In this document: one piece after another, positions 2,894 through 28,334 of the stretch | Layout of the letters: every line of letters begins with the position of its first letter | Position numbering within the stretch: position 1 is the stretch's first letter | Origin: a virus | IMG/VR virus record: IMGVR_UViG_3300024999_002110 | Span: 1 to 29,244 of that record | Direction: 5' to 3' (one strand) | DNA length: 29,244 bases | Program-made: the position numbers and the translations under genes | Notes under the pieces: generated by a model | The model's database searches: none | What the model saw: only the letters and a program-made list of their open reading frames with translations | Told to the model about the DNA's origin: nothing

Positions 2894-2935
2894 AAGTATA
2901 ACCCTTGCTATAATAAGCAAGGGTTATACTTTTTT
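2894..2935. terminator. Perfect 16-bp hairpin with T run, bidirectional terminator
   Basis: Arms 2894-2909 and 2916-2931 (AAGTATAACCCTTGCT and its complement) are perfectly paired around a 6-nt loop. Six T follow on the plus strand (2930-2935). A shorter T tract follows on the minus strand after CAGGA. It probably ends the 5531-3020 cassette. The stronger T run points to plus-strand transcripts, for which no gene is visible. Confidence 0.75.
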
Positions 2936-3019: not shown

Positions 3020-4090
3020 CTAATACCTCACCTCAATAACATTAGATGGCACATCCTGAAAACTAATTGCACGATAAAATTTACTACCAATACCTACCGA
3101 ATCAATAACATCAGACATACCTCGCATATCTGTCCATGTTGTACCATCAGTTGATTTTTGAAGAGTTTTAAAAACTATCATATTATGTCTGAATTTAAGT
3201 GTAATTAACCCATTCTTATTTTCGCTAATAATTTCCAAGCAGTTAACATTTGGGAATATTTCATTAATTGAAGCCGATAATGAATTAGTGTTTACCGCAT
3301 TGGATTTACCGCTAAGATATAAAGGATATGGTAGTGTATTATACCAAAGTGCTGAGTTTTGCGATAATGGTCTTTTACGTGGATATAATGCATAAATGCA
3401 AGAATAAAAAAGTCCACCATTTAAAACTTGCACATCATTACTTTTCCACCAATTGAAAAATGCTTCACCGTATTGGTCGTAACCTGTATCGGTTTCGATA
3501 TCTGTTGTACCGCTTTTATAAGTTAAGGCATCCTTCAAACCTTTTCTATAATATGCTTCTAATTCGACGGGAGAAGCAGGAGTTACACCATCAGGTAGTA
3601 GTACATATGAATTACACATTGAAGAATACCATATCCACTTATTAAACTCTGGACAAAACACGCATGAACTCGTATCAGCTTGGGATGAATCCATCGTTTT
3701 ACCCGTGATTGACATAGTTTGTACACCATATGCTGCCAGAATCCCGTTAAAAACAGAAGATATTGTGCTACATATAAAACCTGGGCCTTTACCACCGTTT
3801 AAAGCAGCATTATCATCCCTTATTTTTAGGTTATTCATTGCAGTATTTGGGGAGGCAGGTATATCATCTGCCCCTTTTTCATAAAACTTTTGAAAAACAT
3901 ATGCACCAATTACTTTGGCCTTATCGAAGGTTATATCATCCATATTTGGTTCAGTTAGACCAAAAGCCGAAAAACCGTTTACACCTTGCATATATGCACG
4001 AATACGATACCCGTCGCCTTGATTCGGATGTTCAAACATAGTTGGTAGTTGTCCCGGTGAAGTTAACTTGCTATTACCCAATATAATCAT
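3020..4090 (-). CDS. Transglutaminase-fold protein with degenerate catalytic triad, phage surface cassette
   Basis: A 356-aa protein whose middle (about residues 55-180) follows the pattern of the transglutaminase/cysteine-protease superfamily: a helix before GFICSTISSVFNGILAAYG, where the Cys sits at the N-terminus of a long helix as the nucleophile does, then the strand VQTMSITG, then CVFCPEFNKWIWYSS. In active members that last segment begins with His and ends in Asp-Pro. Here the His position is Cys and the Asp position is Ser. This suggests a pseudo-enzyme used for binding, for example as a spike domain, but the alignment is by eye. The C-terminal 80 residues look like a beta-sandwich module (KSTDGTTWTDM). 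The start ATG overlaps the TGA of the upstream gene (ATGA) with GAGGTGAT as ribosome binding site. It is the last gene of the high-GC cassette. There is no signal peptide or membrane segment. Confidence 0.6.
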   Translation of the reverse strand: MIILGNSKLTSPGQLPTMFEHPNQGDGYRIRAYMQGVNGFSAFGLTEPNMDDITFDKAKVIGAYVFQKFYEKGADDIPASPNTAMNNLKIRDDNAALNGGKGPGFICSTISSVFNGILAAYGVQTMSITGKTMDSSQADTSSCVFCPEFNKWIWYSSMCNSYVLLPDGVTPASPVELEAYYRKGLKDALTYKSGTTDIETDTGYDQYGEAFFNWWKSNDVQVLNGGLFYSCIYALYPRKRPLSQNSALWYNTLPYPLYLSGKSNAVNTNSLSASINEIFPNVNCLEIISENKNGLITLKFRHNMIVFKTLQKSTDGTTWTDMRGMSDVIDSVGIGSKFYRAISFQDVPSNVIEVRY

Positions 4091-5112
4091 GCAATTATCA
4101 CCTCACCACCAAAGATTGGTCTACCAGGAAGTCTAAATAAATCGCAGGAATACCCGGCTGTTGCACCACCTAGAACTTGTGGTATGGATGTCGTATTCAC
4201 TGTAGTTGCAACAAATAATACTAATTCATTAGGCAAAAATAATGCATCATGAATAGGGTTATCTAATTTTCGTATTACTTTTGCTATTGCGAAATATGCA
4301 GCTACATATGAAGTAGGATTGGAAGTCAAAGGATTTGAGTTAAGTCTAAATGTATTGTTTAATATTTTTAACCCTCTACGGTTTGCCACTGTGGTACTAA
4401 AAGATAAAACTTGCGAAGATGGATTTGGTGAGTCAAATGTACTCACCCAGGGAAGCCATGCAAACCTACATGATTGACCGCCAGTGGTAACAATTACTGA
4501 GCCTACAAATGCGGTATCACAATCAGCCGTATAATCAAGTGGTAACTTTGCAATTATAGGTAACGACGTATCGACGGAAATTGAATTCAGGTAGCTATCA
4601 GCAAGTACCATTATTTTGCCTGGATCATAAACAATTTTTACAAGGGAATTAGATGGGGTATATGCACTTAATTGTTCCATTAATCCCTGATATGGTACAC
4701 CTATACATACGACTTCCCATGTTTTTTCTGTTCCATCACTTACAGTGGTTAAAGTTATTTCTTTTTTTTGAATGTTTAATGCCGAATATAGATTGGTTGT
4801 TTTTGTAGGGTCAGCAGTTAAATCATAAACTGATATAATTTCGGATACATAAGCTTTATCCGTTTTAAAAGTATCGTTATCCGTATTTGCTACCGCAGAA
4901 AAACTACTATACATAGGTATTACTAATTTGTTAGTCGCAGTTGTAGCTGTAAATTGTAATACGTATGTTCTAGCAGGTCTTTCGATATCCAATGATTTTT
5001 TAGGTTCGAGAAAATATGACATTGCATTTTGAAATATATCGCCTAATGCTAGTCTTGGTCTATCAGCAAAATTAATTGTGTTTTTACGGTAAAAAGGGGC
5101 AAATCCAAACAT
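4087..5112 (-). CDS. Unknown 341-aa protein of the high-GC cassette, probable virion surface component
   Basis: The start is the ATG at 5112 (MFGFAPFYRKNTINF), preceded by GAGGAGG. A longer frame to 5247 only overlaps the upstream gene. The ATG shares its A with the TAA of the 139-aa gene, and its own TGA overlaps the ATG of the next gene, so all three genes are translationally coupled. The sequence is rich in Thr, Ser, Val and Ala with alternating hydrophobic residues, which suggests a mostly beta-strand structural protein. It has no signal peptide, no transmembrane segment and only a few scattered cysteines. I recognise no family. By position between a tail-type connector protein and the transglutaminase-fold protein it is probably a fibre or baseplate part, but this is inferred from context alone. 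The base composition is clearly less AT-rich than the neighbouring tail genes. Confidence 0.6.
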   Translation of the reverse strand: MFGFAPFYRKNTINFADRPRLALGDIFQNAMSYFLEPKKSLDIERPARTYVLQFTATTATNKLVIPMYSSFSAVANTDNDTFKTDKAYVSEIISVYDLTADPTKTTNLYSALNIQKKEITLTTVSDGTEKTWEVVCIGVPYQGLMEQLSAYTPSNSLVKIVYDPGKIMVLADSYLNSISVDTSLPIIAKLPLDYTADCDTAFVGSVIVTTGGQSCRFAWLPWVSTFDSPNPSSQVLSFSTTVANRRGLKILNNTFRLNSNPLTSNPTSYVAAYFAIAKVIRKLDNPIHDALFLPNELVLFVATTVNTTSIPQVLGGATAGYSCDLFRLPGRPIFGGEVIIA

Positions 5113-5531
5113 TATATCAACCTCCTCACAATACAGGAGATTCCTGACGGAATGGTTACTTCTGTATTTGGGGTGCCACCTATAGGTGAACGTATAAAGC
5201 CAGCAGGAAATGTTAATGTAATTCCATTTATAATAAAATCTTGCCAAATCTCTTCTTCGTGATATATTTCAATTGCATATATTGATTCAGAAAAAGTAAT
5301 TATATTTGAAATAGCATCAGTATTTTTTTTCTGCTCTGCAATTTTGCTACCAGTTAGTTGGACTTTAGCACTTCCACTAAACAATAAATTATAAATACCA
5401 CTTAACCAACCTCTGATTCCAACTCCTCCAGTTGGTTGATTTACTCCAGTAGCATCAGTCCCATCTTGTGACGGACTTCCTGGGAGAGAAGTTATTTTAA
5501 CATTGTCATTTTTAAATTCAAAATTACTCAT
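5112..5531 (-). CDS. Tail/baseplate accessory protein with DGTDATGVNQPTGG motif
   Basis: A 139-aa protein starting at an ATG behind AAGGAGG. Its N-terminal half carries DGTDATGVNQPTGGVGIRGW followed by LSGIYNLLFSGSAKVQLTGS, a sequence pattern that recurs in Firmicute phage tail and fibre proteins. I know it from memory as part of structural genes, not as a defined domain. The second half (FSESIYAIEIYHEE onward, ending PSGISCIVRRL) is beta-rich and may be a small attachment or trimerisation module. It is the first gene of the coupled three-gene cassette and probably anchors the two following products to the virion. Confidence 0.6.
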   Translation of the reverse strand: MSNFEFKNDNVKITSLPGSPSQDGTDATGVNQPTGGVGIRGWLSGIYNLLFSGSAKVQLTGSKIAEQKKNTDAISNIITFSESIYAIEIYHEEEIWQDFIINGITLTFPAGFIRSPIGGTPNTEVTIPSGISCIVRRLI

Positions 5532-5861
5532 GTTGCTGTAAACCTCCTTTTTATTTATTTTATATTTATTATATTAATAATTTAATCTATGAATTTTGAT
5601 AATTTAGGTATAAAAATATTAAAAATAATTGCTTCATTTTTATTTATAATTATATTAAACAGTTTGCTTATTATTCCATACAATTTATTTTTATATTTTA
5701 AAATACTGGTTCTCCTTTTATTATTATTATTATTATTTATTAATCTACTTCTTGAAAATTTATATCATGTTTACAAAAATATTCCTTAATATATTCCTTG
5801 ATTTATTAATCTACATATAATATAATATAAAAATCAAGCTGCAAGTTAATTTCAAATCCAT

Positions 5862-5905: not shown

Positions 5906-5995
5906 TACTTTTTTATTATCCAAATTTGACTTCCTACTTAACTTGTACTATAATAATATCTAACATAATATTAATTCTTCGCAATTAACTTTCTG

Positions 5996-6048
5996 CAAAA
6001 CAACACTAGAATTGGATATTCATCTTATCTAGTGTTGTTTTGTTTTTT
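5996..6048. terminator. Perfect 15-bp hairpin with T run
   Basis: CAAAACAACACTAGA (5996-6010) and TCTAGTGTTGTTTTG (6028-6042) are perfectly complementary, followed on the plus strand by TTTTTT (6043-6048). It lies just outside the presumed right end of the TnpB element and may insulate phage genes from it. Confidence 0.7.
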
Positions 6049-6100
6049 ATTTTAATTTAAAAGTAATAGTGTCAAGTATTTTTACCTTATCCCCTATCCT

Positions 6101-6309
6101 GAACCTCTGCACGAGATAAATCTCGGCAGGTTCTTATTTATTTAAACTTCTCATATACTCTCATTTATAAATATTATACATATTTACATTTTACAACATA
6201 TATGAACTAATTTAATTTAATAAGAATTTTACTATCAATTAGTCTATTGACTAAATTAACGATAGTATCAAGCCCGATTCTCGACTTGTTTACAATAGTT
6301 TAAATTAGA
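6101..6309 (-). ncRNA. Candidate omega-RNA / right-end structured region of the TnpB element
   Basis: TnpB proteins use a guide RNA encoded at the 3' end of tnpB and the right end of the element. Here two hairpins follow the stop codon. The first is 6231-6266, with ACTATC/GATAGT and TTAGTC/GACTAA as nested stems. The second is 6101-6133, with GAACC/GGTTC, TGC/GCA and CGAGA/TCTCG, GC-rich in an AT-rich setting. If the second hairpin is the RNA scaffold end, the guide would start just below 6101. This is inference from family knowledge. Confidence 0.4.
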
Positions 6310-7782
6310 TTAAATTACATTCTTTAATCCATTACTTAAATCTATGCTTTTCAATCTTTCTATTTCAATATCATGTAATAATTTAAACTTATCAAATTCA
6401 CTAAAACATAATTCTCTATTAATTGTTTTTAAATCATTGTTCACATTCATAATAAGAAATGCACTATAAAGATCACGTTGAATTTTAAATTCCCCAAAAT
6501 CATTCCACCGTTCTGATAAATCCTTTTTATTATATTCGTTAGTTATATGATTATACTGACTTGCTTTAATGCTATAAGTATTAATTTTATATAATTGTGT
6601 TCCATTCCATTTAAGTTTATTATCTAAAATTTTTAAAAACATTGAAGGTGCTTTATTTGCTAAACTTTTGCCAAATCGTTTCTTTTTATTAAATTTACCT
6701 GTTTTATCATTAATAGTAGTATTTTTACTTCTTTTCTGCAATCCCTTATAATTCATATCCTCAACATAAAATTTATCACCTAAATTTAATATCTTATTTG
6801 CTAAAATATTATGTGATTGCTTCCTTAATACTGATTGTTTTCTAAATAATTCTTTTCTAATATTCTTAATTTTAATATAATGATTGCTATAAATCCATTT
6901 ATCCTTATTGCCTTTAATTATAGTACCATTCTCATTATATTTATTAGGATTAGTAACACGTTTGCTTCTGTCCATTTTTCTTTGAAGTAATTTAATTTCT
7001 CTGTCTATTTTATTAATTTCAGGTGCTAATTCTAACAATTTAATATCATATTGACTACTATAAGCAATCGTTTGTGTACCAATATCAATTCCAACAGAAC
7101 CAGTTCCTATTTGTCCTTTAATTTCTCCAGTTTCTTTATGAATCTTAATAGGAGGAATACCTTCTAAAATTAATTGAACATAATAATGATATTTACCTTT
7201 AATCATATCTCTTTTAATTCTACAATATTTGATATTATCTTGAATTGCCATATGAGCATAGACATCATTATCTTTAATTATTACTGGAATTTTTAATCCA
7301 TTCCAAATTAATAAATTAGTTTTAATATCATATCTAATTCCACTTTTATTCCATTTACCTTCAATACTTTTTAATTCATCATATTTAATAAAATTAACTT
7401 TTTTAGCAGTATGAAACATTAATTTTTCAAAAGTAGAATATGCTCTTGATGCTAATTTTTGGCAAGTTAGACTATCAATATTATCCTTAAAATGTTTATA
7501 CATTGGTTTAACAAATTCATGAAGTGAATATTCATTAATATTATAAAGTTTATTCAAATCATTAAATTGTTTGTTTCTATTTTTACCTTTAGGCAATTTA
7601 CTAATTCTTGTATATTCCTTAGATTCCCTCATATGATTATATCTTTTTATAATTTCACCTAAACAAACATTATATATTTGTCTACATATATTAAATCGTT
7701 TATTTAAAATATCTTCTTGATATATTTCTGTATTTAAAGGAAGAGTTAGAACATAATTTGATTTTGAATTATCTTTACTCAT
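6310..7782 (-). CDS. tnpB: TnpB-like RNA-guided nuclease lacking the zinc knuckle
   Basis: A 490-aa OrfB/TnpB-family protein. The RuvC-like triad can be read: Asp in GIDIGT near residue 231, Glu in YVEDMN near 339 and Asp in QRDLYSAF near 435. In usual TnpB proteins a CxxC...CxxC zinc knuckle lies between the second and third motifs. Here that segment (KASQYNHITNEYNKKDLSERW) contains no cysteine at all, so this belongs to a zinc-less branch, while the catalytic triad appears intact. The N-terminal 200 residues are basic and match the position of the RNA/DNA-recognition lobe. It starts at an ATG behind AAGGAGGTGA and has its own TTGCAT-17-TATAAT promoter. TnpB cuts DNA next to a short motif under guide-RNA control and helps the element persist. 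No tnpA partner is present. Longer than the common 370-430 aa form. Confidence 0.85.
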   Translation of the reverse strand: MSKDNSKSNYVLTLPLNTEIYQEDILNKRFNICRQIYNVCLGEIIKRYNHMRESKEYTRISKLPKGKNRNKQFNDLNKLYNINEYSLHEFVKPMYKHFKDNIDSLTCQKLASRAYSTFEKLMFHTAKKVNFIKYDELKSIEGKWNKSGIRYDIKTNLLIWNGLKIPVIIKDNDVYAHMAIQDNIKYCRIKRDMIKGKYHYYVQLILEGIPPIKIHKETGEIKGQIGTGSVGIDIGTQTIAYSSQYDIKLLELAPEINKIDREIKLLQRKMDRSKRVTNPNKYNENGTIIKGNKDKWIYSNHYIKIKNIRKELFRKQSVLRKQSHNILANKILNLGDKFYVEDMNYKGLQKRSKNTTINDKTGKFNKKKRFGKSLANKAPSMFLKILDNKLKWNGTQLYKINTYSIKASQYNHITNEYNKKDLSERWNDFGEFKIQRDLYSAFLIMNVNNDLKTINRELCFSEFDKFKLLHDIEIERLKSIDLSNGLKNVI

Positions 7783-7822
7783 AAATATTCACCTCCTTGA
7801 TATTTATTTTATAATTTTATTA

Positions 7823-7851
7823 ATTATACCATATATTAAATTAATATGCAA
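7823..7851 (-). promoter_or_regulatory. Sigma-A promoter of tnpB
   Basis: Minus strand: TTGCAT (7851-7846), exactly 17 nt, TATAAT (7828-7823), placed about 40 nt before the tnpB start codon. Near-consensus, so the gene need not rely on read-through from the lysis genes. Confidence 0.75.
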
Positions 7852-7878
7852 GAATTTTATTTATAATTTATATAGAAC

Positions 7879-7919
7879 GCCATTCATCCTCACATGCTAA
7901 AGCATGGAGGCTTTCTGGC
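7879..7919. repeat. IS200/IS605-type end hairpin
   Basis: A nested imperfect palindrome: GCCA/TGGC outside, CCTC/GAGG in the middle and CATGC/GCATG around a TAAA loop. This layout is common at ends of IS200/IS605 elements. Next to it, 7921-7984 is a purine-rich, GC-richer tract on the plus strand unlike the phage DNA. It is either the left end of this element or the 3' scaffold end of an older TnpB element. Confidence 0.5.
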
Positions 7920-7984
7920 TAACTCTTGTAAAAATGAAAGTGGGGAAGGAGCGAGAGAAGACAGTGTGTAAAAGGTAGAGGAGG

Positions 7985-8338
7985 TTATTTTACTTCTCCA
8001 CTAATATCAGCATTAGATTTAATATTACTACTATCACTATTATTTTTATTCATTAATGTTTCGACCGATTTTACACTTACACTCGCTAAAATTATTCCAT
8101 TAATAAAATTTATAAAAATTGCTTCACCATTGAATATATTTTCTCCTAAAAAATGTTTAGATAAAAATAGTAAAAACTCAGAAATCATGAAAACTAGGTA
8201 TTTCGTAGATAATGTTTTACCAAACGCTTTTTTATAGATGTTATCTACAATGTCTTTAAAATATTGTACTAGTAATACAACTACTAGAATTAAAGTTGTA
8301 ATAGTAGATAGATTCTGAATTGAAATAAATTGTTCCAT
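7985..8338 (-). CDS. Holin-like small membrane protein
   Basis: A 117-aa protein with hydrophobic segments at about residues 11-30 (TITTLILVVVLLVQYF), 48-65 (YLVFMISEFLLFLSKHFLG) and 73-95 (AIFINFINGIILASVSV), followed by a polar Asn/Ser-rich tail. Small size, two or three membrane spans, a charged C-terminus and position directly downstream of the endolysin gene fit a class I or II holin, which would form lesions in the cell membrane and release the amidase at lysis. The ATG at 8338 is preferred over a GTG at 8350 because AAAGGAG is then 11-12 nt upstream instead of touching the start. The exact holin family is not identified. Confidence 0.7.
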   Translation of the reverse strand: MEQFISIQNLSTITTLILVVVLLVQYFKDIVDNIYKKAFGKTLSTKYLVFMISEFLLFLSKHFLGENIFNGEAIFINFINGIILASVSVKSVETLMNKNNSDSSNIKSNADISGEVK

Positions 8339-8381
8339 AATAGAACACACTCCTTTAATATTTAATTATATTAATTTTATC

Positions 8382-9161
8382 TTATTTATTATTTATTTTC
8401 TCTAACAATCTTGCCATCATAGTAAATAACAACCAATTATCAGTTTTTTCATCCATTTTATTACTCCATAAATTACCATCATTAATAATCCCATTTTTAA
8501 TTAAACTATCCAATGAATTAATTCCTGCGTCTTTCATCCATTTTTCTATTGCCATATCAATTAATTCCTCCTTGTTATTATTTGTATTTAAATTTTCTGT
8601 TACTTTTAATTGTAAATTAAAACATTTAACTAATCCATTTACAATCGAATCTGCTAATCCATCTAAAAACTTATTATCTTTAAGTAATTTAGCATTATTA
8701 GATGAAGATACAAATAAATTCTCTAATAAAATTGCTGGCATATTACTTTCACGTAAAATATGAAAATTACTTTTCTTCATACCACGATCAATTACATTAT
8801 AATTTTTCAAATAACTCATTACTTCATTATGTATTACCTTTTGATATTCTATAGATTTGCTAGAAGGATTAGTATAAATATGTGATTCCCAACCACTTGC
8901 ATTAATATTTGTTGCTGAATTACAATGGAAACTAATAAGATAATCAGCATTAATTTTATTAGCATATTTTGTTCTATCAGATAATTGACCTCTAGGTAAT
9001 ACTATAATTTCACAAATGTATTTATTTTGTAGACGATCTATTACTTCATTAGAAATAATTTCATTTAAATTTGCTTCTATCAAATTATTCCCACAAGCAC
9101 CTGGATCATTTAATTTATACTGTGGAGTTATTCCATGACCTATATCTACCAAAATTATCAT
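8382..9161 (-). CDS. Endolysin, N-acetylmuramoyl-L-alanine amidase (Amidase_3)
   Basis: A 259-aa lysin that should cut the bond between N-acetylmuramic acid and L-alanine in peptidoglycan. The Amidase_3 signature is clear: VDIGHG with the first zinc His near residue 9, a Glu in NLIEANLNE near 29, SFHCN with the third zinc ligand near 75, and the catalytic Glu in LLENLF near 146. The domain ends around residue 180. After an Asn-rich linker there is a C-terminal region of about 60 residues (EKWMKDAGINSLDSLIKNG, then LWSNK, then LLFTMMARLL) resembling the small helical wall-binding or targeting tails of clostridial lysins. No signal peptide, consistent with holin-dependent release. ATG follows AAAAGGAGGAA. 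It lies between the XhlA-like and holin-like genes. Confidence 0.9.
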   Translation of the reverse strand: MIILVDIGHGITPQYKLNDPGACGNNLIEANLNEIISNEVIDRLQNKYICEIIVLPRGQLSDRTKYANKINADYLISFHCNSATNINASGWESHIYTNPSSKSIEYQKVIHNEVMSYLKNYNVIDRGMKKSNFHILRESNMPAILLENLFVSSSNNAKLLKDNKFLDGLADSIVNGLVKCFNLQLKVTENLNTNNNKEELIDMAIEKWMKDAGINSLDSLIKNGIINDGNLWSNKMDEKTDNWLLFTMMARLLEKINNK

Positions 9162-9197: not shown

Positions 9198-9659
9198 TTA
9201 CTTCACTGCCATGTAAATACTCCCACCAATAGTTGCCAAACCTCCGAAAAATAAAATTATTTGTATATATACCTTACTTTTCCCATCAATTTTTGCCACC
9301 TCAACTTTAGTAGAATTGTCTTGTTTGTTCATAAGTAAGTTATTCAATCCTGATAGCATGGCATTATGATTGGTTAACATTTGCCCCTCGATCTTATCCA
9401 TACTTTTTTTTAGGGATTCCTGACCTTGTTTAACATTATTTAATGTTTCATTATTCTTGGCAAATTCGATTTCTATACTTCTCAATCGTTCATCATGAGA
9501 CTTTATTCGCTCATCTACTTCATTAAAACGCTCTTTAATTTCAATAGTATTCACTTTACAACCATCTCCTTCCGAAATTTCATCAATTCCATTATAAAGA
9601 CTTCCACAAAAATTCCTATCAATCTTATCATTCTTATAATTATTTTCACTATTTATCAT
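9198..9659 (-). CDS. XhlA-like lysis-associated membrane protein
   Basis: A 153-aa protein with a long amphipathic coiled coil (about residues 38-110, heptads such as IKERFNEVDERIKSHDERLRS) and one C-terminal membrane span (VYIQIILFFGGLATIGGSIYMAV). This is the architecture of haemolysin XhlA proteins of Bacillus and related prophages, which act with a holin and an amidase in host lysis. The N-terminal 35 residues are polar and unassigned. It is the first gene of the lysis cassette, 36 nt ahead of the endolysin. GAGAGGTG precedes the ATG. The role is inferred from architecture and neighbourhood. Confidence 0.7.
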   Translation of the reverse strand: MINSENNYKNDKIDRNFCGSLYNGIDEISEGDGCKVNTIEIKERFNEVDERIKSHDERLRSIEIEFAKNNETLNNVKQGQESLKKSMDKIEGQMLTNHNAMLSGLNNLLMNKQDNSTKVEVAKIDGKSKVYIQIILFFGGLATIGGSIYMAVK

Positions 9660-9959: not shown

Positions 9960-11063
9960 TTATACCACCATATAACTTATTCCTTCACCACTTACAGAAG
10001 AATCTATGTATATTAAATTTGCGTTAGACACTTCAATTGTTCTATATTCTAATTTTTCAATTTCTACTCCATAGACAGTAGAAGATACATCACTTCCACC
10101 AATGTAAATATATCCTGTATTTGCTCTTTTAGCAGTTATTGTTACTTTTTTACAAGAAATACCAGGTAATTGTACTCTGGTTCCAGCAGTAGTAACATTA
10201 ATAGTTGCGCCTGTTAATGTACCACTACTAATTATTTTCATACTACCAGGATTAACATCAGTAAACTTTTCTGTTCCATCTGCATTAATAGGCACTATTT
10301 TACCAATATTAGCAGTACCACTTGGAATAGGGTTAGTTATCTCAATAGGTAATGCACCAGTACCATCCCCTTGTAATTGTTTTATAATACCTTTTGAAAA
10401 AGCAATTAAACTACCAGATAATGTAGGATCTATAATTGGACTATCTGCTTTTAATCCAATACCAACAATACCACCATCAGATGAATTTATACTACCAGGA
10501 TTTAGACTAGTAAATATTTCTGTTCCTGAAGAATTTTTATTTACTATTCCATTTGTAACCCCAGGAGTAGTTTGATCAATTTTAACACTAGGGATATTAT
10601 TTATTTCAACAACATTATTATCGCTATTTAGTGCCATTGCTTTACCTAATACAGTAATATTACCACTTGTATAAGAAGTAATTTCTGCTCTAATTTTTAA
10701 CAAACAATTACAATTAACCTTATAAATACCAGGAGAAGTAATTAATGATAAAATATTATTATCATCTTTAGTTACTTTTATTGGTACAAAATTAGCACCA
10801 TCTACACTTCCTTTTACAGTTATTTCTCCTACAAATGTTCCTGTTACTTGTAATTTTACTGTCCCATACCCATCAACTGTAAAATCTACACCATTGCCTA
10901 TTGCTGAAGCAGAATCTTGTAGAATTAAATTCTTAGGTTTAGCAGAATGTATCATTACATATTGAGAATTGCTTTCGCCTTTAATTTCTGTATACTGTAA
11001 ACTATTAGCATCTAAAATTTGTGGTACAAAATTACCATCTTGGTCTGTAATTAAAACTGCCAA
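9960..11063 (-). CDS. Phage tail/fibre structural protein, beta-rich
   Basis: A 367-aa protein that starts at TTG (11063), as no ATG or GTG lies nearby and AAAGGAGTGA is placed 9 nt upstream. The first 150 residues resemble a jelly-roll-like domain (FTVDGYGTVKLQVTGTFVGEITVKGSVDGANFVPI). Then two related segments follow: GIVNKNSSGTEIFTSLNPGS and KIVPINADGTEKFTDVNPGS, a repeated unit of about 90 residues. The C-terminal 90 residues (TVYGVEIEKLEYRTIEVSNANLIYI) look like a tip domain reporting a sugar- or surface-binding role. Such repeats are usual in baseplate-attached fibres. It is the last gene of the long tail operon. No catalytic motif is seen. Confidence 0.65.
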   Translation of the reverse strand: MAVLITDQDGNFVPQILDANSLQYTEIKGESNSQYVMIHSAKPKNLILQDSASAIGNGVDFTVDGYGTVKLQVTGTFVGEITVKGSVDGANFVPIKVTKDDNNILSLITSPGIYKVNCNCLLKIRAEITSYTSGNITVLGKAMALNSDNNVVEINNIPSVKIDQTTPGVTNGIVNKNSSGTEIFTSLNPGSINSSDGGIVGIGLKADSPIIDPTLSGSLIAFSKGIIKQLQGDGTGALPIEITNPIPSGTANIGKIVPINADGTEKFTDVNPGSMKIISSGTLTGATINVTTAGTRVQLPGISCKKVTITAKRANTGYIYIGGSDVSSTVYGVEIEKLEYRTIEVSNANLIYIDSSVSGEGISYMVV

Positions 11064-11470: not shown

Positions 11471-14400
11471 TTAAGGTCTAATTTTAACCAATACTAAACC
11501 TTGTCTTCTAGCAACACTTATTGTACCAGAATAATTATTACCTCTCATTGTATACCAAGTACCAGAAGGTAAAATATAAGATTGTGTAACTTCGTTCATA
11601 TTTAATAATGCTACACAATTATCAAACTTTCTACTAAATAAACCATTATTCAATTGATAATCTTCTAATGGATTTCCAGTAGTAATAAAACATTCAGGTT
11701 GCATTTGTTCATGCCAGTTGCTTCCGTATGTATCTGATCCCCAATCTGAATGACAATAATAAGCATTTTTATGTTTACCCATTAAAAATCCTGCCAAACT
11801 AAACATTCTAGCAGGATATAATTCACTTGAACTTCTAGCAAGAGCAACTACCCATTTATCATTTTCTCCACACCATTTTATAAAATCTATTTCATTTTTT
11901 ATGAATTCTAAATCAAATCCTTCTGTTGTAATGACATCTGGATTTGTTGTCCAAGTATATAACCAAGTTTCTAATAAATATCCATCAAATGGCATTGCAA
12001 GTAATTTTGTATCTTCTACAAGTGTTCCATCTAAATTAAAATCTCTAGCACATCCGAAATTAGTCGTAAGATATTTACCTTGTCTGTGCAATTCATTTGC
12101 TAATAATTGCATTCTATTAGCACTAGAAGATAATCTCTCATAAACACTTCTAAAATTTAGTAATTGACTTGCTTCTGCTGACCAGTTAAAATCTACAAGA
12201 GTACCATAACTTTCTCCCCAAAAATCATCAATATATATTCCATCTGACCATATTTCTCTTTCTCTGATTAATCTATCGACATACCATTGTACTGTTTCAA
12301 GGTTTTTCCAATCATAATAGTATCTACCATCACCAAAAGGACTAGAAAATCCAGTTGCATCTACGCAAAACCATTCCTTACGTTGTGCCATAATCTCTTG
12401 CCATCCTATTTGATTTGGATAATCTGATAAATCATCAAAATAATGAAATAAAAATAATTCAGGGTATAATTTATATATTACGTCAGCTTTTACATTTGAC
12501 CAATCAGATATAGGACTATAGTGCATATCATAGTCAAGCATTTGCTTTTGGTTATATACTGTAGGACGAAAAACTTCCCATCTGCCTATTCTTTTTGTTA
12601 CATCAGGTAATATTTTTTGTATTTTAGGTACAATAACTTCAGCATATAAATTATTAATATTTGTAGGCAAATTATTTTCTATTATTGGTTCTTGCAAATT
12701 ATCTAAAACAAGTGGATAAATAGTAAGAGTTTTAGAATCAGTGATACCTTCATATGATGCATTAATTGTTATTTCACTAGATATAGATGGTAATGTATAA
12801 ATAGCATTGGATAATCCAATTGAATTAGTTGGTAATGATATAATACTGCCAATATTTGGAGATATAGAGTAATTAACTGTAAGATTTTTCTGTTCAACAT
12901 TATTCCCATTATATTTTAATTGTGAATATAATTTAATTTGTTTAATTGTTTCAGTATTTAATTCTGTATAAGGTATTGTTAATTCTACATCATCTACAAT
13001 AGGAATATCTTGTTCTTCTATCACAATTATATCATCTACCCAAATAATTCCTGTTCCACCTCTACCAATATCTATTATTATATCTATTTCTTTAATTGTT
13101 TTTGTTGGAATAAATTCAAAATTTAATTGTGTCCAATCAAATGTATCTGAAGGCCATATCTGAGCAGTACCCAATGGATTCCATTCACTTGTATCATCTG
13201 TATATTTAATCCAAGTCTCAAACCATAAATTTGCACCATTTATACAATTTTCACCTTTTGCCCAAGCATTAAATATAACCTTTTTAGGTGTAATTTGATT
13301 TAAAGTAACTGTTTGTTCTATTTGTGTATATCTACAATCAATTCTATCAATATTAAATTTGCAAGATAAAGGAGTAGAATGATATATATTTGAATCTATA
13401 CTTATACCTAATCCTGTAACATCTTCATCTGACATATTTGTGCCATAATTAGACCATCCAGATAATTGTAAAGAAAAATCATTATTTGAAATATTATTAA
13501 TTGTAACTATAGGTATTATACTACAATTTTCAATCCAGTTATATTCACCTTGAAATACCCAAAATCTTAATTTTGCTTTAATATATCCTGTAGTATTAGG
13601 TTCAAATAATACTTTATATTGATTACCTATATTGGATACTGTGATATATTTATATACGGTTAAATCTTGATTATCATTCGCATCATAATAATGCAATGAT
13701 ATTTGTAAATTAGAGGAAATAATATTCTCTCTTTTAAAATAAAATCCTACTTCCAAATTGTCTCCAACATTCACATCGAACTTTTGAGATTGAACAATAA
13801 CCCAATTATCTGTTATGTCATCATATATTGGAGGAGTAATTTTAAATGCTTTACCAGATGATTGTATTATAGGATTTTCAATATTTGTTACAGTAGCGTT
13901 CACTCCAACACTTGACCCATATACTTCCCATCCAGAAGGAATTGTAGAATTGACAGGATAAATAGAATAATTACCATTATATAAATGCTCAAATGTTTGA
14001 ATGGGAGAATCTTCCTCTTTTAAACTTAAAGCATTCATAAAATATGTAATTCCTTGTGAATCACTACCATATACTAAATATCTAAAATCTACTTCAATTG
14101 CATCAATAGGTGCTTGTAAAATAATTTGATTTAAATTATATGTTATTGTATATGGAATTGTATAAAATTCTTCATCTCCTGATCCATCACTAGTATTAAA
14201 TTGTATCCCTAATAATCCGTTAGAATTAGCAGTAGATTTAGTATATATTGAGAAATTATATTGTCTGCCACCAATTATAGGAACATTAGATTTATTTATA
14301 CTTTTCCATGATGCTTTAGGAAAATTAAAATACATTGATCTTGTACCATCAATTGCTACTTCATTAGAAAATCCACTATCTACAATAGAATCACCATAAA

Positions 14401-16939
14401 TATTAAATCCTGAAGGGAAAGTTGTACCATCTTCAAAAGTTCCATTTGCTAATAATTCTGGATATTCTGGTTCTATAATTTCTCCTGGTAATTGTATTCT
14501 ATTTATTGTTGGTTTTTGTGGATTATTTCCCAAATAATATTCTTTATCTAATTTAGCATAATAATTATTAGCATATATTCTATAAACTGCAATTGTAAAA
14601 TCTGTTGCAACTACTAAATTTATACCTATTATATTCCAAGATGTTATACCTATTATTGGTATATCTATATATTGTATAATATTTCCACTTAAATCAAATA
14701 CAATAAATTTATTTTGATTATTATCATAAGTTATTAATTTATCATAATATAATGACAATCCTTTACAATCAAATGATCCTTTAATATTAAAGTTATTTGT
14801 AATATTCCCTATTAAATTAAATATTTTCACTATTCCAGAATTTGATATTCTTGCAATATGATTATCATTAATAAAACAAAAATCTGTAAATCCAATATTG
14901 CCAGAATATGTTATTGTATTAGATAAATTATATACATCACCAATATTATTCATATACCATAATTCATCATTAAAATAAGATAATGCTACAATATTTATTT
15001 CTGATTCTATTAAATTTAATTTATTAGGGACAAATATATCTGATTCATAAATACCTGAATCTGTAGTAATATAATATTTATTTGCATGAGATAAATATAA
15101 TATAGAATTAATATCTTCATCAACAGAATAAATAGCATTCACATTTTCCACAGGAATACTACCATTGTCAAATATTATTTTATGATTAACATTATCTATA
15201 TTCCATAATTTTGCCGTATTTGTTATAGAAGGATAACCAGATAATAAATTTGTACCTGTATCATAATAGATATATCCATTATTTCTTAATTGCTCAGCAG
15301 ATATTTCAGCAACTAAATGATTCTGTCCATCATTCCATATTAATTTTTTAACTCCTGCAACGCTATACTCCCAAGGTTGAATAGTGTCTTCATTTTGTGT
15401 CATATATATTTTATAACTTGTCGCACCATCAACTGGACAAATTTCTATAGGAACACAATTAGTATTTGAAATAGCATCTGTTATTGCTCTTACTTCATTT
15501 GATCTGTCAGTCTCACCAAAAGAAGTACATGCAGTAACACAATAATATCTAGTATTATTTGCAGGAATATTTCCTCCTGTAGTCACTAACCATCTATCAG
15601 GATGAACAATATGAGGTATTCTTAAATACTGATCAGTATTTATATTATTTACTTCTATTTCTGAAATATTATTATTCCAAGGAGATATAGTATACTCAGT
15701 ATCATTTATTTTTGTCATTTCTGAATTTTGTAATAATGTAAATGATTTAAATGTATTAGAAGCAATAAATTCTCCTATTAATCCATCTGTTATAAACGAT
15801 ACACTATTATTATCTTTAATATCTAATTCTACATGATTAATATTTATAATATTGTCAAGATTAATTACATTTGTGCTATCAATATTATTACTAGGTATTT
15901 CTAATATGTTTTTATTTGAATTAATATTAATTGTATTAGAAGATAATAATGGTTCAGAAACTAATAAAACACCACCTATATATCCATTATCTCCACTAAT
16001 ATTAGTGATTTCAATATCTACTTTTTCAGAATATAATGTATTCATAATATAAATAATATCTGTTTGCCATTGATTACTTGTCTCTATATTGATAATTTTT
16101 TCATTAATTATATTTCTATATCTATCTAATAGTTTAATATTTACTTGAAAATTAGTTACTCCTAAACTCATAGAATATATAGTTATTTTTTGTTTTAGTA
16201 ATCCTTTGTCAATGCAAATATTATTTTGACTTATAGAACTATTATTTTGCATAAACATAGAATTTGTGCCAATAGGATTAATTTCTTCTATAATTGTTGA
16301 ATTTACACAATCCCATCCTGTAGGAATAATATCATCACTTGAATAAAAAAAATTAGAATTCATAATAACATTTTCTATAGGTAAACTTACTTGTGGAATA
16401 TCTAATTCTTCTAAAGTAAATCCACCATACCATGCTTTACCTACTGAAAATCCTCTATGTAATATATGAAAAAATAAATATTTTACTGGTCTTGAAGGAA
16501 TAAAAGTTTTTTTCTTAAAAGTAAAATCATAAGTCCCCTCATCAAAAGTTAAATTACCTCCACCAACAGCAGGCCAACCAGGAGGATAACCAATAAACCC
16601 AACATTTATGATTGGATTACCTGTGCAATTTTCAGCAGATACATAAGCAGATACTCTAATTGGTTTAACTTCTGTTTGATTAATTGCTATTACCTGTGTT
16701 ATACCACCAGATTGTTGTACTAATAGGTTAGTAATATCAAGCATAATAGATTTACCACCAGAGGGAGGAGATAGGGTACTCCAATCTGCCCCACTCGAAT
16801 CAAATCTGCCATAATCGCAACCCCCAAGGTAAAACCAGTAATCAGGAGAAATACCATTTCCTCCTAAAGTATCACATATTCCATTATTAGCATAGCAATG
16901 ATCAGAAGGATCATATGGAAAATTACCTTCACTGTCCAT
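11471..16939 (-). CDS. Giant multidomain tail spike with C-terminal glycoside-hydrolase-like TIM barrel
   Basis: At least 1822 aa. By eye: two beta-sandwich modules (residues about 1-330), an FN3-like module (about 440-550, YYCVTACTSFGETDRSNEV), a beta-propeller-like run of short repeats (about 590-800), three carbohydrate-binding-like jelly rolls, each with an N..F/GW signature (about 830-980, 985-1140, 1150-1305), an Ig-like domain (about 1323-1407), and a C-terminal barrel (about 1450-1790). The barrel carries DGIYIDDFWGE near 1568 and GYLLETW near 1655, as in the hypothetical glycosyl hydrolase family GHL15; these acidic residues are the likely catalytic pair. It probably binds and cuts a cell-surface glycan during adsorption. 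The ATG at 16939 has no good ribosome binding site, and the frame stays open upstream to 16999, where an ATC lies 7 nt behind AGGTG, so the true start may be further upstream. Confidence 0.8.
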   Translation of the reverse strand: MDSEGNFPYDPSDHCYANNGICDTLGGNGISPDYWFYLGGCDYGRFDSSGADWSTLSPPSGGKSIMLDITNLLVQQSGGITQVIAINQTEVKPIRVSAYVSAENCTGNPIINVGFIGYPPGWPAVGGGNLTFDEGTYDFTFKKKTFIPSRPVKYLFFHILHRGFSVGKAWYGGFTLEELDIPQVSLPIENVIMNSNFFYSSDDIIPTGWDCVNSTIIEEINPIGTNSMFMQNNSSISQNNICIDKGLLKQKITIYSMSLGVTNFQVNIKLLDRYRNIINEKIINIETSNQWQTDIIYIMNTLYSEKVDIEITNISGDNGYIGGVLLVSEPLLSSNTININSNKNILEIPSNNIDSTNVINLDNIININHVELDIKDNNSVSFITDGLIGEFIASNTFKSFTLLQNSEMTKINDTEYTISPWNNNISEIEVNNINTDQYLRIPHIVHPDRWLVTTGGNIPANNTRYYCVTACTSFGETDRSNEVRAITDAISNTNCVPIEICPVDGATSYKIYMTQNEDTIQPWEYSVAGVKKLIWNDGQNHLVAEISAEQLRNNGYIYYDTGTNLLSGYPSITNTAKLWNIDNVNHKIIFDNGSIPVENVNAIYSVDEDINSILYLSHANKYYITTDSGIYESDIFVPNKLNLIESEINIVALSYFNDELWYMNNIGDVYNLSNTITYSGNIGFTDFCFINDNHIARISNSGIVKIFNLIGNITNNFNIKGSFDCKGLSLYYDKLITYDNNQNKFIVFDLSGNIIQYIDIPIIGITSWNIIGINLVVATDFTIAVYRIYANNYYAKLDKEYYLGNNPQKPTINRIQLPGEIIEPEYPELLANGTFEDGTTFPSGFNIYGDSIVDSGFSNEVAIDGTRSMYFNFPKASWKSINKSNVPIIGGRQYNFSIYTKSTANSNGLLGIQFNTSDGSGDEEFYTIPYTITYNLNQIILQAPIDAIEVDFRYLVYGSDSQGITYFMNALSLKEEDSPIQTFEHLYNGNYSIYPVNSTIPSGWEVYGSSVGVNATVTNIENPIIQSSGKAFKITPPIYDDITDNWVIVQSQKFDVNVGDNLEVGFYFKRENIISSNLQISLHYYDANDNQDLTVYKYITVSNIGNQYKVLFEPNTTGYIKAKLRFWVFQGEYNWIENCSIIPIVTINNISNNDFSLQLSGWSNYGTNMSDEDVTGLGISIDSNIYHSTPLSCKFNIDRIDCRYTQIEQTVTLNQITPKKVIFNAWAKGENCINGANLWFETWIKYTDDTSEWNPLGTAQIWPSDTFDWTQLNFEFIPTKTIKEIDIIIDIGRGGTGIIWVDDIIVIEEQDIPIVDDVELTIPYTELNTETIKQIKLYSQLKYNGNNVEQKNLTVNYSISPNIGSIISLPTNSIGLSNAIYTLPSISSEITINASYEGITDSKTLTIYPLVLDNLQEPIIENNLPTNINNLYAEVIVPKIQKILPDVTKRIGRWEVFRPTVYNQKQMLDYDMHYSPISDWSNVKADVIYKLYPELFLFHYFDDLSDYPNQIGWQEIMAQRKEWFCVDATGFSSPFGDGRYYYDWKNLETVQWYVDRLIREREIWSDGIYIDDFWGESYGTLVDFNWSAEASQLLNFRSVYERLSSSANRMQLLANELHRQGKYLTTNFGCARDFNLDGTLVEDTKLLAMPFDGYLLETWLYTWTTNPDVITTEGFDLEFIKNEIDFIKWCGENDKWVVALARSSSELYPARMFSLAGFLMGKHKNAYYCHSDWGSDTYGSNWHEQMQPECFITTGNPLEDYQLNNGLFSRKFDNCVALLNMNEVTQSYILPSGTWYTMRGNNYSGTISVARRQGLVLVKIRP

Positions 16940-20607: not shown

Positions 20608-21303
20608 TTAATTAACTTTATTCTCAAGTAGATTAACATTCTTTTTATTCCAACGCTTTAGAATATACTGAATACCCTTTGGTGTCACAAGTGTAACCGG
20701 AATATCCACAATTTCACCTTTTATATACATAGATTTTATAATCACTAAAAAGTATCCAGCGTCGATAAATTGTTGTCTAGGTATATTATGTCTTTCCTTT
20801 TTCGACATTAATATATCTTCACTTCTGAGAAAGGCGAACATTTTATTCCTGCCTTTGAGTTTTAATACTTTAGCAACTTGGAGCATTGTGAAGTTGCTCC
20901 TTGTGTTAATTACTTGGTTATAGAATTCTATTTTAGGTTGTTGTTCCTCTAGTTTTTGTTGGAGCAGTATTAATTCTCCTTTCCTTAAACCTTCTAAAAG
21001 ATTCCAAACCCAATCCATAAAAGCATTTGCATTTGACTGTCTACTCCAACGACATATTTCATAAATACCTCTTGCTTCGTATAAATATGTGTTTCTTCCG
21101 TTTACCAAAGTGGTAAATGAATATTTATCAAGTCGCTCTTTATGCCTATCATGAATTTTCCCAATTGCAGTCATCGGATCTGAGTATTCCAAAGCAATCC
21201 CCATTTGTTCTCTTGTCATAAAAATATCATTATTAATATTTCTATATAAATCACATACAGTACCCTGAAAATTTTCACTCTTATATAATACTAAATCATT
21301 CAT
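20608..21303 (-). CDS. Phage antirepressor, BRO-N plus KilAC (ANT) domains
   Basis: 231 aa from the ATG at 21303 (MNDLVLYKSENFQGTVCDLY), which overlaps the end of the upstream gene by 8 nt and uses GGTGAG as ribosome binding site. Residues about 1-105 form a BRO-N DNA-binding domain (FMTREQMGIALEY, then NTYLYEARGIYEICRWSR). Residues about 130-220 form a KilAC/ANT domain (NFTMLQVAKVLKLKGRNKMF, FLRSEDIL, then GIQYILKRW). Proteins of this build are made by temperate phages to antagonise the lysogeny repressor or to switch genes directly. Here the natural partner is the XRE repressor 600 nt upstream. It shares a promoter with the zinc-ribbon gene. Confidence 0.85.
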   Translation of the reverse strand: MNDLVLYKSENFQGTVCDLYRNINNDIFMTREQMGIALEYSDPMTAIGKIHDRHKERLDKYSFTTLVNGRNTYLYEARGIYEICRWSRQSNANAFMDWVWNLLEGLRKGELILLQQKLEEQQPKIEFYNQVINTRSNFTMLQVAKVLKLKGRNKMFAFLRSEDILMSKKERHNIPRQQFIDAGYFLVIIKSMYIKGEIVDIPVTLVTPKGIQYILKRWNKKNVNLLENKVN

Positions 21304-21790
21304 CTTGCTCACCAACTTCTCCAACGAAGCTAAAAATACAACTGTCACAAAAATCTAAAGAATTAACAATTTCACCACTATTTTCTCCATCATCATAATG
21401 ACTTCCGTAATTAATACTGCCACTGTGGACTCTCCATATTGTTTCTTCTGGCACTAATATTTCTTTGCCACATTTATAACATCTAGGATATATAAATTTT
21501 CTTTCTAATGTACAGACACCAACTATGTAGTCATTAGTTTTAATAGAAACCACATCAAAATAAAAATCATTATTCAAATTAGATATTGAATTAATTTTAC
21601 TTAACTCAATAGAAGTTACTACACAATCATCCTCTGATTGATCATGAAATTGGATATATTCATCTGTTAATTGGTAGGAGAATGAGTTATAAACGTAAGT
21701 TGCTGATAGTGTATTATTTAGTAAAGAGTGGAAACTTATTTCACATTTTCTGTCTACGAATTGGTTTAGTAGATTATAGTTATTCTTCAT
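21296..21790 (-). CDS. Zinc-ribbon protein of 164 aa, unknown
   Basis: Begins MKNNYNLLNQFVDRKCEISF behind GGAGGAG. The first 100 residues look like a small beta-barrel (FYFDVVSIKTNDYIVGVCTL). The end carries CYKCGKE and, after 35 residues rich in Gly, Asp and His, FCDSC, which together make a plausible four-cysteine zinc site. It is translationally coupled to the antirepressor, so both are under the promoter at 21855-21883. A role in modulating repressor or host RNA polymerase would suit this place, but no family is recognised and this is only context. Confidence 0.6.
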   Translation of the reverse strand: MKNNYNLLNQFVDRKCEISFHSLLNNTLSATYVYNSFSYQLTDEYIQFHDQSEDDCVVTSIELSKINSISNLNNDFYFDVVSIKTNDYIVGVCTLERKFIYPRCYKCGKEILVPEETIWRVHSGSINYGSHYDDGENSGEIVNSLDFCDSCIFSFVGEVGEQDE

Positions 21791-22390: not shown

Positions 22391-22969
22391 ATGTTTAAAA
22401 TTAACAATAAGAATATTCAGAAAATTAAATATTTTAGTTTAGGATTAATTACAAGTAGTTTATTATTTTCTTCAGTTACTTTTGCTGATAACTCTGCTAT
22501 AAAAATTTATTTAAATGGCAAACTACTTGAAAATGCAGAAGTTATCAATGTTAATAATTCTACTTATTTGCCTGTGAGAAAATTATGTGAAGCATTAAAA
22601 ATGAAAGTTAATTTTGATAGTGCAAATAATAGTGTGATTATTGATAGTAGTGATATAGATGTTAATAACATACAAACTAAACAAATTCAAGAAAATCAAA
22701 AATCTCAACAACAAAATAGTATTAATAATACATCTAATGATATTAAAGAAACTACTTATAATGGAATTAAATCAATTAATATTAATGGAAAAACATATTT
22801 TAATGGTAGAGAATATAATATTAAATTTCCTGGTATTCTAAATTGGGACAATAAAAAACAAAAAGCGTATATTAAAACAGATAATGAACATATAGAAATA
22901 GAAAATTTGCCAGAAAATATTCAATTATTATATGGACAAAGTTATTTTAATATTAAATATTATAGATAA
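22391..22969 (+). CDS. Secreted stalk-domain (copper amine oxidase N-terminal-like) protein
   Basis: A 192-aa protein with a typical signal peptide: basic KINNKNIQKIKYF, a hydrophobic core LGLITSSLLFSSV and a cleavage site TFA/DN at residue 32. The mature part begins IKIYLNGKLLENAEVINVNN, then STYLPVRKLCEALKMKVNFD, then NNSVIIDSS, the pattern of the copper amine oxidase N-terminal / stalk domain that is abundant in secreted proteins of Clostridia. After a Gln/Asn-rich linker a second beta-domain follows (GIKSININGKTYFNGREYNI). No LPXTG, lipobox or choline-binding repeat, so it is probably secreted or wall-associated by other means. It has its own promoter and runs opposite to the tail genes, ending 2 nt from the Tal stop, which is typical of a lysogenic-conversion gene. 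Confidence 0.8.
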   Translation: MFKINNKNIQKIKYFSLGLITSSLLFSSVTFADNSAIKIYLNGKLLENAEVINVNNSTYLPVRKLCEALKMKVNFDSANNSVIIDSSDIDVNNIQTKQIQENQKSQQQNSINNTSNDIKETTYNGIKSININGKTYFNGREYNIKFPGILNWDNKKQKAYIKTDNEHIEIENLPENIQLLYGQSYFNIKYYR

Positions 22970-22971
22970 TA

Positions 22972-25917
22972 TTAACCAAGTTTAGCAACTAATGGTTGAT
23001 CCAATCTATTAACTCCTGAATATACACCACCAAGAGCAGTTAAATAAATTGCATTTGCATTAGGAGTATAAAACATACCATCACCTGTAGAACCCCATGT
23101 TACACCACTATTAAAATCAAGTGGATTTAAAATTAATTGATTCCCGACAGAACAATCTGTCCCAACATCAATAGTTGTATCAGTCGTAAGACTCCCAGCA
23201 GTTACAGTACCTAAATTTGCAGTAATTGCAGATAATGTATTTACACTAATTTTATCTGCACTTACACTATTGTCAGATAAATAATAACCATTAATTTTAG
23301 TATTTAATTCACTTAAAATATCTATACCTTGTATTCTTAATGTATTACAATCAATATCACCTGTAACTTCTGCATCTTCTGCATGAAGGAATCCACCAGG
23401 AGTTACTCTAAATTCAGCATTAAGGAATGTACTCGCACCTAAATATAAACCATTTTCATCAATATGGGTTTCTCCAGCAGTACCAGAATTAATCTCGACA
23501 TAACCTTTTGTTACCAAATTACCATCGTTATTTATATAGAATAAATCATCCCACACTGGGGCTTCAATCGTTCCAGTATTTTTTTGGATCTTTATGCCGT
23601 TTGAAATATTCATTATTATTCTACTCTTACTATCTGTTTTAGTTATTATTAATGACATATCTTCAATATTTACACCATTTTGGTCTACAGAAAAATTGCC
23701 TGCTTCATTGGTTATTGTTAATATTGTAGATGCAACAATTTGGCCAATTAACTTATGTGCATATACCCCCGACCCATCAATTGCAATATCTAAAGAATTC
23801 CATCCGTTGGTTGTTAGTGCAATTATTCCATGCATAAGACGAATTGCCTTTTGAACATCATCAGGATTCGTTATGGTTATTCCTCTACCATTTATTTCTA
23901 CTGATTCATTTACTCCTGCTAATATTTCTCTTAAAGATGAATCCCATTTATTATTTAATATATCATTTACATCACTTTTAATATCATTAGCACTATTCCA
24001 TCCAAATTTATTTTGCTCAACTGTAATCCCTGCATTTATACTTTGATTTAGCATCTGTAAATATTTGTCTTTATTTTGATTTATATCTTTTAAGTTACTA
24101 ATTATTACAGAGATATTACTATTTTCAAAATCATATGTAATTTCATTAATTTTTGCTTTCACATTGACATTGAATTTATCGTATCGTATATTTACAATTT
24201 CTGACAATTGTAACTTATCCCTATCATATTGACAACCAATGTCAATGCAACCAAATAAATCCACTATATCAATCTCGATTATTGTCGCAGGCTGATAGAT
24301 TTTTGCAAATTCCAATTTCCCCCAATTTAACAATTCTTGGACATCCGAAATATACTCATTTCTTACTTCTTTCTTAATTATAAATGACCTTTTTAATTCT
24401 AATATTTGTTCTGGTGTAAAATTATTACTCACAGATAAAAGATCAGTTAATATATTCATCTGAATATTTATATTACTAATTTGATTCTCTAAACCATTAT
24501 TAACTTTACTACCAATAGTACAAGTAACTCCTGTGCTATCTGTATCAGTAAATGTAATATCAAAATTTGCTTGATCTTTGGTTGTAAAATAAATTATACT
24601 GACAGTATCATTAATAACACTACATTTAAAGATAGGAATTAGAGGGAATTTATTATCATAATTATAATATATACTATTAATATAGTTATTTATTTTTGTA
24701 GCAACAGTATTTATTGTATCTCCTAAAACTACTGGAATATCTATTACCTTATCATCAATAGTTAAATTAATATTACCATCAACAATACATGGATTAGTAA
24801 TTGTAATATCCACTAATATCGAGTTAATATCTTTATATTTATTATCTAATTCTATTTGTTTATTATTTCTATCTGTGATAAGTGTAGATGTGTCTAAATT
24901 ATTTGCTTGCCCAATATCAATAGCATCTAAAATTACATACATTTCTGTTTTTAAATCTGTTAAATCAGTATTTGCAGTATTTAATGTTTCTTGCAATGTT
25001 ATTTTTTGTGTTAGTAAACTATTATATTCTCCTTCTTTTGAAGATAATAGATCATTGTAATCTAATATAGAATTCGCTAAATCATCCGACATGTAATCGC
25101 TATGAATTAATACATTTTTATTTTCGTCCCTAGAGAATGGATATAAAAAATAAGTAAAATTCTGCAAAAATGGCATCCCTGTAGTGTTAGAACTGGCAAT
25201 AGATATATTATCTTTACCATAAATATACAATTGTGTACAAAATGAATCAGGATCTATTGTATTATTTATTGATTTTAAATATTTACCGTATGCGAAAGAT
25301 AATCCCCTATCTAATCCGTATGTCTCAATATCATACAGACTAACAGTATAATTTATTGTATCAAATACAACTAATGCCCCAAAGGTATTAGCTATATCAT
25401 CACATATAGTATCTAAGGCAGTCTTTCCAGAAATATCAAATTGTCGAAACATAATGTCGAATTTTGTATCTATATGTCCAATTATCCATGTAGTGTCGCT
25501 TAAAATATCCGTCAACACAGTAGTAGCATTAATAGAATCAGTTGTTTTATATCCATTTATAATTTCATTATTTAACAAATAAGCCAAAGAAAAACAAGTA
25601 ATATTTTTTATTGCTGTGTTATCTTCAGTGTCGTTATCTTCTGGCAAATTTATAATAAAATATTCAACATAATCATTTAAAACAAATTTAATTAAATACC
25701 TATGTTTGAGTAAATTATAATTCGGATTCACAATATATTCATGATTTATATCTTTATAATAATTTAACGAAAATGAGAGTTCATTTATTGATGATAATTT
25801 TAAATTTAGTGTAATATTAAAAGCATCTGATAACTTGCCAATTATAGATAAATTTGGTTTACATACATATAAATCTGGTTTTTGTCCAATTTTTGAATAA
25901 TCAATTTCAAATGACAA
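22972..25917 (-). CDS. Tail-associated protein (Tal / prophage tail-endopeptidase-like), TTG start
   Basis: 981 aa from the TTG at 25917, with AGGTG 7 nt upstream and no ATG nearby. The N-terminal 250 residues (SIIGKLSDAFNITLNLKLSSINELSFSL, then INGYKTTDSI, then GKTALDTICDDIANTFGALVVFD) resemble the phage minor structural protein N-terminal region, a gp27-like hub fold. A coiled coil lies near residues 290-370, a second beta-region reaches to about 620, and the C-terminal third is fibre-like with repeats of Asn-Asn-Asp-Gly and SVDQNGVNIED. No lysozyme or peptidase motif is seen. It should close the tail tube and carry the receptor-binding parts. It is the largest hub component and starts the tail-tip region of the operon. 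Confidence 0.8.
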   Translation of the reverse strand: MSFEIDYSKIGQKPDLYVCKPNLSIIGKLSDAFNITLNLKLSSINELSFSLNYYKDINHEYIVNPNYNLLKHRYLIKFVLNDYVEYFIINLPEDNDTEDNTAIKNITCFSLAYLLNNEIINGYKTTDSINATTVLTDILSDTTWIIGHIDTKFDIMFRQFDISGKTALDTICDDIANTFGALVVFDTINYTVSLYDIETYGLDRGLSFAYGKYLKSINNTIDPDSFCTQLYIYGKDNISIASSNTTGMPFLQNFTYFLYPFSRDENKNVLIHSDYMSDDLANSILDYNDLLSSKEGEYNSLLTQKITLQETLNTANTDLTDLKTEMYVILDAIDIGQANNLDTSTLITDRNNKQIELDNKYKDINSILVDITITNPCIVDGNINLTIDDKVIDIPVVLGDTINTVATKINNYINSIYYNYDNKFPLIPIFKCSVINDTVSIIYFTTKDQANFDITFTDTDSTGVTCTIGSKVNNGLENQISNINIQMNILTDLLSVSNNFTPEQILELKRSFIIKKEVRNEYISDVQELLNWGKLEFAKIYQPATIIEIDIVDLFGCIDIGCQYDRDKLQLSEIVNIRYDKFNVNVKAKINEITYDFENSNISVIISNLKDINQNKDKYLQMLNQSINAGITVEQNKFGWNSANDIKSDVNDILNNKWDSSLREILAGVNESVEINGRGITITNPDDVQKAIRLMHGIIALTTNGWNSLDIAIDGSGVYAHKLIGQIVASTILTITNEAGNFSVDQNGVNIEDMSLIITKTDSKSRIIMNISNGIKIQKNTGTIEAPVWDDLFYINNDGNLVTKGYVEINSGTAGETHIDENGLYLGASTFLNAEFRVTPGGFLHAEDAEVTGDIDCNTLRIQGIDILSELNTKINGYYLSDNSVSADKISVNTLSAITANLGTVTAGSLTTDTTIDVGTDCSVGNQLILNPLDFNSGVTWGSTGDGMFYTPNANAIYLTALGGVYSGVNRLDQPLVAKLG

Positions 25918-28275: not shown

Positions 28276-28334
28276 AAAATAAAACAACTCCTTTTCTAAT
28301 ATTGTAAGGGAAAACTTATCCTTTACTTGATATT

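Follow-up and report, generated by a model that had tools for sequence, protein, structure and literature searches.

We consider it reasonably probable that three overlapping genes on the minus strand of a metagenomic phage sequence form a moron-type accessory cassette, exchanged laterally and used for display on the virion, which consists of an adaptor and two probable outboard proteins. The DNA analyzed, hereafter the window, is the entire 29,244-base virus record IMGVR_UViG_3300024999_002110. It encodes a Tal-like tail protein (22972-25917) with Prophage_tail and YOMG_N domains, and because this protein has 26-38% identity to its counterparts in large Bacillus, Brevibacillus, Alicyclobacillus and SPbeta-type siphophages, we infer that the window represents part of a large siphophage whose host is Firmicute-like and AT-rich. 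The tail genes are followed by a holin/endolysin set at 7985-9161, by a TnpB gene at 6310-7782 and by the cassette. The cassette is thus placed past the lysis genes and outside the tail operon, a position that counts against a role in the virion. Two other proteins of the window deserve mention. A structural protein of 1822 aa (11471-16939) carries a C-terminal glycosyl-hydrolase-like GHL15 domain (PF14885, 2.6e-10) and is possibly a virion polysaccharide depolymerase. A protein with a Copper amine oxidase N-terminal domain and an apparent signal peptide is encoded at 22391-22969 on the plus strand, adjoining the Tal gene on the opposite strand, and a similar domain is, by eye, seemingly fused to the endolysin of a related phage described below (G004; L014:1282-2205).

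The cassette is one coupled translation unit with its own terminator. It comprises gene 1 (P0003, 139 aa, 5112-5531), which is adaptor-like, gene 2 (P0002, 341 aa, 4087-5112), which is beta-rich by composition only, and gene 3 (P0001, 356 aa, 3020-4090), all on the minus strand. Gene 1 has AAAAAGGAGGTTTACAGCAACATG, and each of the three genes is preceded by a Shine-Dalgarno sequence forming a good ribosome-binding site. The ATG of gene 2 at 5112 overlaps the stop codon of gene 1 in a TAATG junction reading GAGGAGGTTGATATAATG, and the ATGA junction reads GGTGAGGTGATAATTGCATGA; the reading frames and overlaps given in the preliminary description are therefore confirmed in the sequence. Overlaps of these types are ordinary in the window, another being found at 17854-18486/18486-19679. 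An intrinsic terminator (2894-2931, minus strand) with a 16-bp stem and a T-rich tail closes the transcription unit. Promoter-like sites were found at chance level, 48 compared to 42 in shuffled sequences. All three proteins have many T, S, V, I, Y and F residues, and none of them contains a signal peptide or a transmembrane segment, which argues against a host-surface protein of the lysogenic-conversion kind.

A scan with the Tal protein produced two phage contigs in which the site of the cassette could be compared, G002 (70,790 bases) and G004 (106,330 bases). G002 is 99.7% identical to the window over positions 7931-29244 and has neither the cassette nor the TnpB gene, while G004 is a cousin phage with a Tal protein that is 78% identical. 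In G002 the sequences homologous to 2181-2684 and 5923-6053 are joined by approximately 160 bp, and in G004 a TnpB gene sits between the same flanks as the cassette. The site is bordered by the lysis genes on one side and by a small conserved gene on the other, and the flanking proteins are related to those of G002 (90% identity for the gene at 2172-2516 and 92% for the holin-like gene). One border of the variable site is a downstream conserved flank (2535-2733) common to G002 and G004, and the lysis-side flank (5923-6053, plus strand) is a conserved promoter and terminator unit, a candidate small RNA that is described below; the cassette-free allele of G002 connects this flank with 2535-2684. 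A further flank (5555-5650, minus strand), common to the window and G004, stands directly before the ribosome-binding site of the cassette and contains the in-frame remnant of a small gene, ending ...IFIPKLSKFID-stop; the match of this flank scores 90.6 bits compared to at most 56 for shuffled sequences. Two other interpretations of this flank were rejected: it is not a promoter, being the end of the small reading frame, and its resemblance to a repeated TnpB left end, with a second copy before another TnpB-like gene of G004, is a 49-bit match within the shuffle range. When more alleles with the conserved flank were sought in viral contigs, only G002 and G004 were obtained, and none of the seven related contigs contains P0001 or P0002.

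The three phages show mosaicism close to the cassette, and the identity to G002 falls abruptly from 99.7% to a mosaic pattern at about position 7931. This point marks a recombination border that separates the lysis genes from the remainder. Because of the mosaicism, gain and loss of the cassette are not strictly polarised, and it is the base composition that favours a gain over a loss. The idea of an acquired block is upheld in the form of an insertion exchanged laterally, as a phage 99.7% identical over 7931-29244 lacks it and its composition is atypical, and the three genes probably came in by exchange as a single block.

The compositional contrast had originally been drawn from two rows of sequence, and both counts are correct (29 G+C of 60 in row 4441-4500 and 11 of 60 in row 14521-14580). 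The rows were hand-picked, as counts of 11 or fewer occur in 71 of the 487 rows and the 1822-aa tail gene reaches 31 of 60 at 16770, but the contrast survives when the whole cassette is compared: its 2512-base stretch has 35.6% GC, and the highest value for such a stretch elsewhere in the window is 28.7%. The cassette genes have approximately 35% GC compared to 26% for resident genes, with GC3 values of 0.22 and 0.13, and all of 145 open reading frames of at least 100 aa in two contigs of related phages stay below 34% GC, the composition of the cassette being the most GC-rich among the phages sampled. When the cassette proteins were re-encoded with resident codons the GC content was 31.7%, and the amino-acid content thus accounts for approximately 60% of the GC excess. 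For the whole cassette the synonymous GC3 deviates with z = 8.7. Composition alone is no proof of import, since a few resident genes are equally deviant in codon choice (20608-21348 with z = 6.3, 9198-9659 with z = 4.8 and 27952-28287 with z = 4.5); these include an anti-repressor. The further proposal that the donor came from a less AT-rich host is not supported, as the relatives of gene 1 are found on contigs with 25-26% GC and no relatives of genes 2 and 3 were found from which a donor could be named.

Relatives of gene 1 were found only in three contigs, G008, G009 and G010 (loci L020, L022 and L024), and are approximately 40-47% identical to P0003. The similarity comprises two blocks, one reading DGTDATGVNQPTGGVGIRGWLSGIYN at about residues 21-57 and a C-terminal domain at about residues 64-137 that includes IGGTPNTEVTI. 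A scan of genome contigs with the gene 1 family gave no match; within the window, the structural-region gene at 9960-11063 shares a linker motif with the family. The three contigs belong to a different phage lineage, which shares almost nothing but HNH endonuclease genes with the phage of the window and those related to it. The gene 1 relative of G009 and G010 comes after virion structural genes (phrog_6123 and phrog_2729), and G010 also has portal-like (phrog_2739) and Collar-domain genes nearby, while G008 begins inside the relative and retains the same downstream partner. This partner, present in all three contigs, is a protein of 349-353 aa with weak resemblance to the phrog_4577 tail protein (1e-7) and to DUF1565, and it is unrelated to P0002 (hhalign probability 0.1). 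The order of the locus is similar to that of the cassette in that a short protein with both shared blocks precedes one of approximately 350 aa after virion genes, but the genes are 20-25 bp apart and do not overlap, there is no third gene, and GC3 is low. As neither P0001 nor P0002 is found beside the gene 1 relative in these contigs, the expectation that the three genes always travel together is contradicted. Gene 1 belongs to a small modular family that occurs with different partners; its product is a laterally shared protein of the adaptor type, and it behaves as an exchangeable adaptor.

The products of genes 2 and 3 are orphans in all the collections searched. Neither of these nor P0003 had a meaningful match in Pfam, PHROGs, NCBIfam, PADLOC, the PDB or phage and plasmid records, and tblastn against phages and plasmids likewise gave no match for the cassette proteins. 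Scans of viral contigs with whole and partial P0001 and P0002 sequences, and of genome contigs with P0001, were also negative, and we claim no family membership for genes 2 and 3. For gene 3 a transglutaminase fold had been proposed. By eye, P0001 has GFICSTISSVFNGILAAYGV followed by strand pairs, with Cys107 at the start of a helix, an order resembling the Cys helix and beta arrangement of the Transglutaminase-like superfamily (PF01841), and single-sequence AlphaFold models of the protein and its core show a helix and then three strands, at pLDDT values of 37-43, a confidence too low for use. A Foldseek search with these models gave no match, the Transglut_core profile did not match P0001 up to E = 10 and was not found in the Pfam scan, and the only histidines are His21 and His302, so that the putative core has no His at the catalytic position or close to it. 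P0001 is therefore unlikely to work as a Cys-His-Asp enzyme, and the proposed fold is not supported. That gene 3 encodes a degenerate transglutaminase-fold (pseudo)enzyme on the virion would be compatible with a display cassette; we regard it as improbable, the arrangement seen by eye and in the models being opposed by the missing profile and fold matches and by the lack of any histidine between residues 22 and 301. More speculative still, and quite doubtful, is that genes 2 and 3 represent two new virion families, in which a degenerate cysteine-protease- or transglutaminase-like domain with a Cys and no catalytic His would be carried on a swappable adaptor as a head for binding or for thiol-dependent attachment.

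In the arrangement that we favour, gene 1 would encode a short virion adaptor attaching to the particle, and the products of genes 2 and 3 would sit on it as outboard surface proteins, made at levels matched to gene 1 by means of the translational coupling. These proteins would add a binding or display function, e.g. toward the host cell wall, a capsule or particles, and the cassette would be dispensable for the core particle. We infer the association of the trio with the virion from sequence comparison, and the display unit put forward in the preliminary description is plausible, because the only relatives of gene 1 lie in virion-gene clusters. For genes 2 and 3, which lack a detectable relative or fold, placement in the virion is guilt by association. 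Morons are autonomous accessory phage genes, each placed between two genes that stand side by side in related phages. The cassette resembles them in its absence from a close relative at a colinear site, its atypical composition, its own terminator and its compact transcription unit, and it differs in having three coupled genes of which the first is of a virion type, rather than a lysogenic-conversion gene. With respect to the proposed role only, it may also be likened to T4 Hoc, T5 pb10, N4 gp17 and phi29 gp8.5, although no sequence or structural similarity to the cassette proteins was found. These are virion decoration and head- or tail-fibre proteins, a class of dispensable surface proteins that aid adhesion and show evidence of horizontal transfer (PMC7602432).

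The most serious alternative, which we nevertheless consider unlikely, is that the cassette acts inside the infected cell, e.g. against host defence or competing phages, and is not part of the virion. Accessory cargo is common between lysis genes and early-type genes in phages, and the cassette lies in just such a position outside the tail operon; its genes are orphans, and the sibling alleles hold TnpB or nothing, with no structural genes. An intracellular role is disfavoured by the absence of a PADLOC match, by the virion clusters around the gene 1 relatives and, weakly, by the amino-acid bias of the sequences noted above, which is often seen in structural proteins. Somewhat less probable again is that the genes are a tail or virion module of the usual kind, native to the phage group and lost by G002 and G004 with no import involved. 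The mosaic relation of G002 to the window below 7931, the small number of phages for polarising gain and loss, the large contribution of amino-acid content to the GC excess and the small-gene remnant that G004 also carries in frame are all in line with such a loss, but the cassette is found in no other related contig, its synonymous codon usage deviates strongly, and the gene 1 family is present in an unrelated lineage. Finally, in a metagenomic record the abrupt drop in identity near 7931 could signal an assembly chimera in which cassette DNA from another organism was joined to the phage. We hold this to be very improbable, as the sequences on either side of the cassette have homologues in G002 and G004 and come in the order expected, with the high protein identities to G002 given above.

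Laterally exchanged accessory virion genes are already well known as a phenomenon. What a display cassette at this site would add is a natural pair of phages, near-identical over 21 kb and with the cassette in one only, that would allow a direct test of how an accessory surface cassette influences adsorption. It would also suggest that unrelated phages reuse an adaptor domain with different partners, and two protein families without known relatives would be placed.

The site and its surroundings contain two further kinds of element. The candidate small RNA in the lysis-side flank (5923-6053, plus strand) recurs in the related phages at L010:18892-19012 and L014:2815-2690. It has a TTGACT-17-TATAAT promoter, a transcript of approximately 90 nt and a terminator hairpin, is antisense to late genes, and corresponds to no Rfam family; four pairs of the hairpin are altered on both sides among the three phages. 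The TnpB region of the window (6099-7927) is missing at the exact corresponding point in G004, and the TnpB gene at the cassette site in that phage (L014:3216-4505) is a different one. G004 has another TnpB-like gene between replication genes (58883-60097), and the TnpB gene of the window gives a weak score against Cas12f/Cas12u models.
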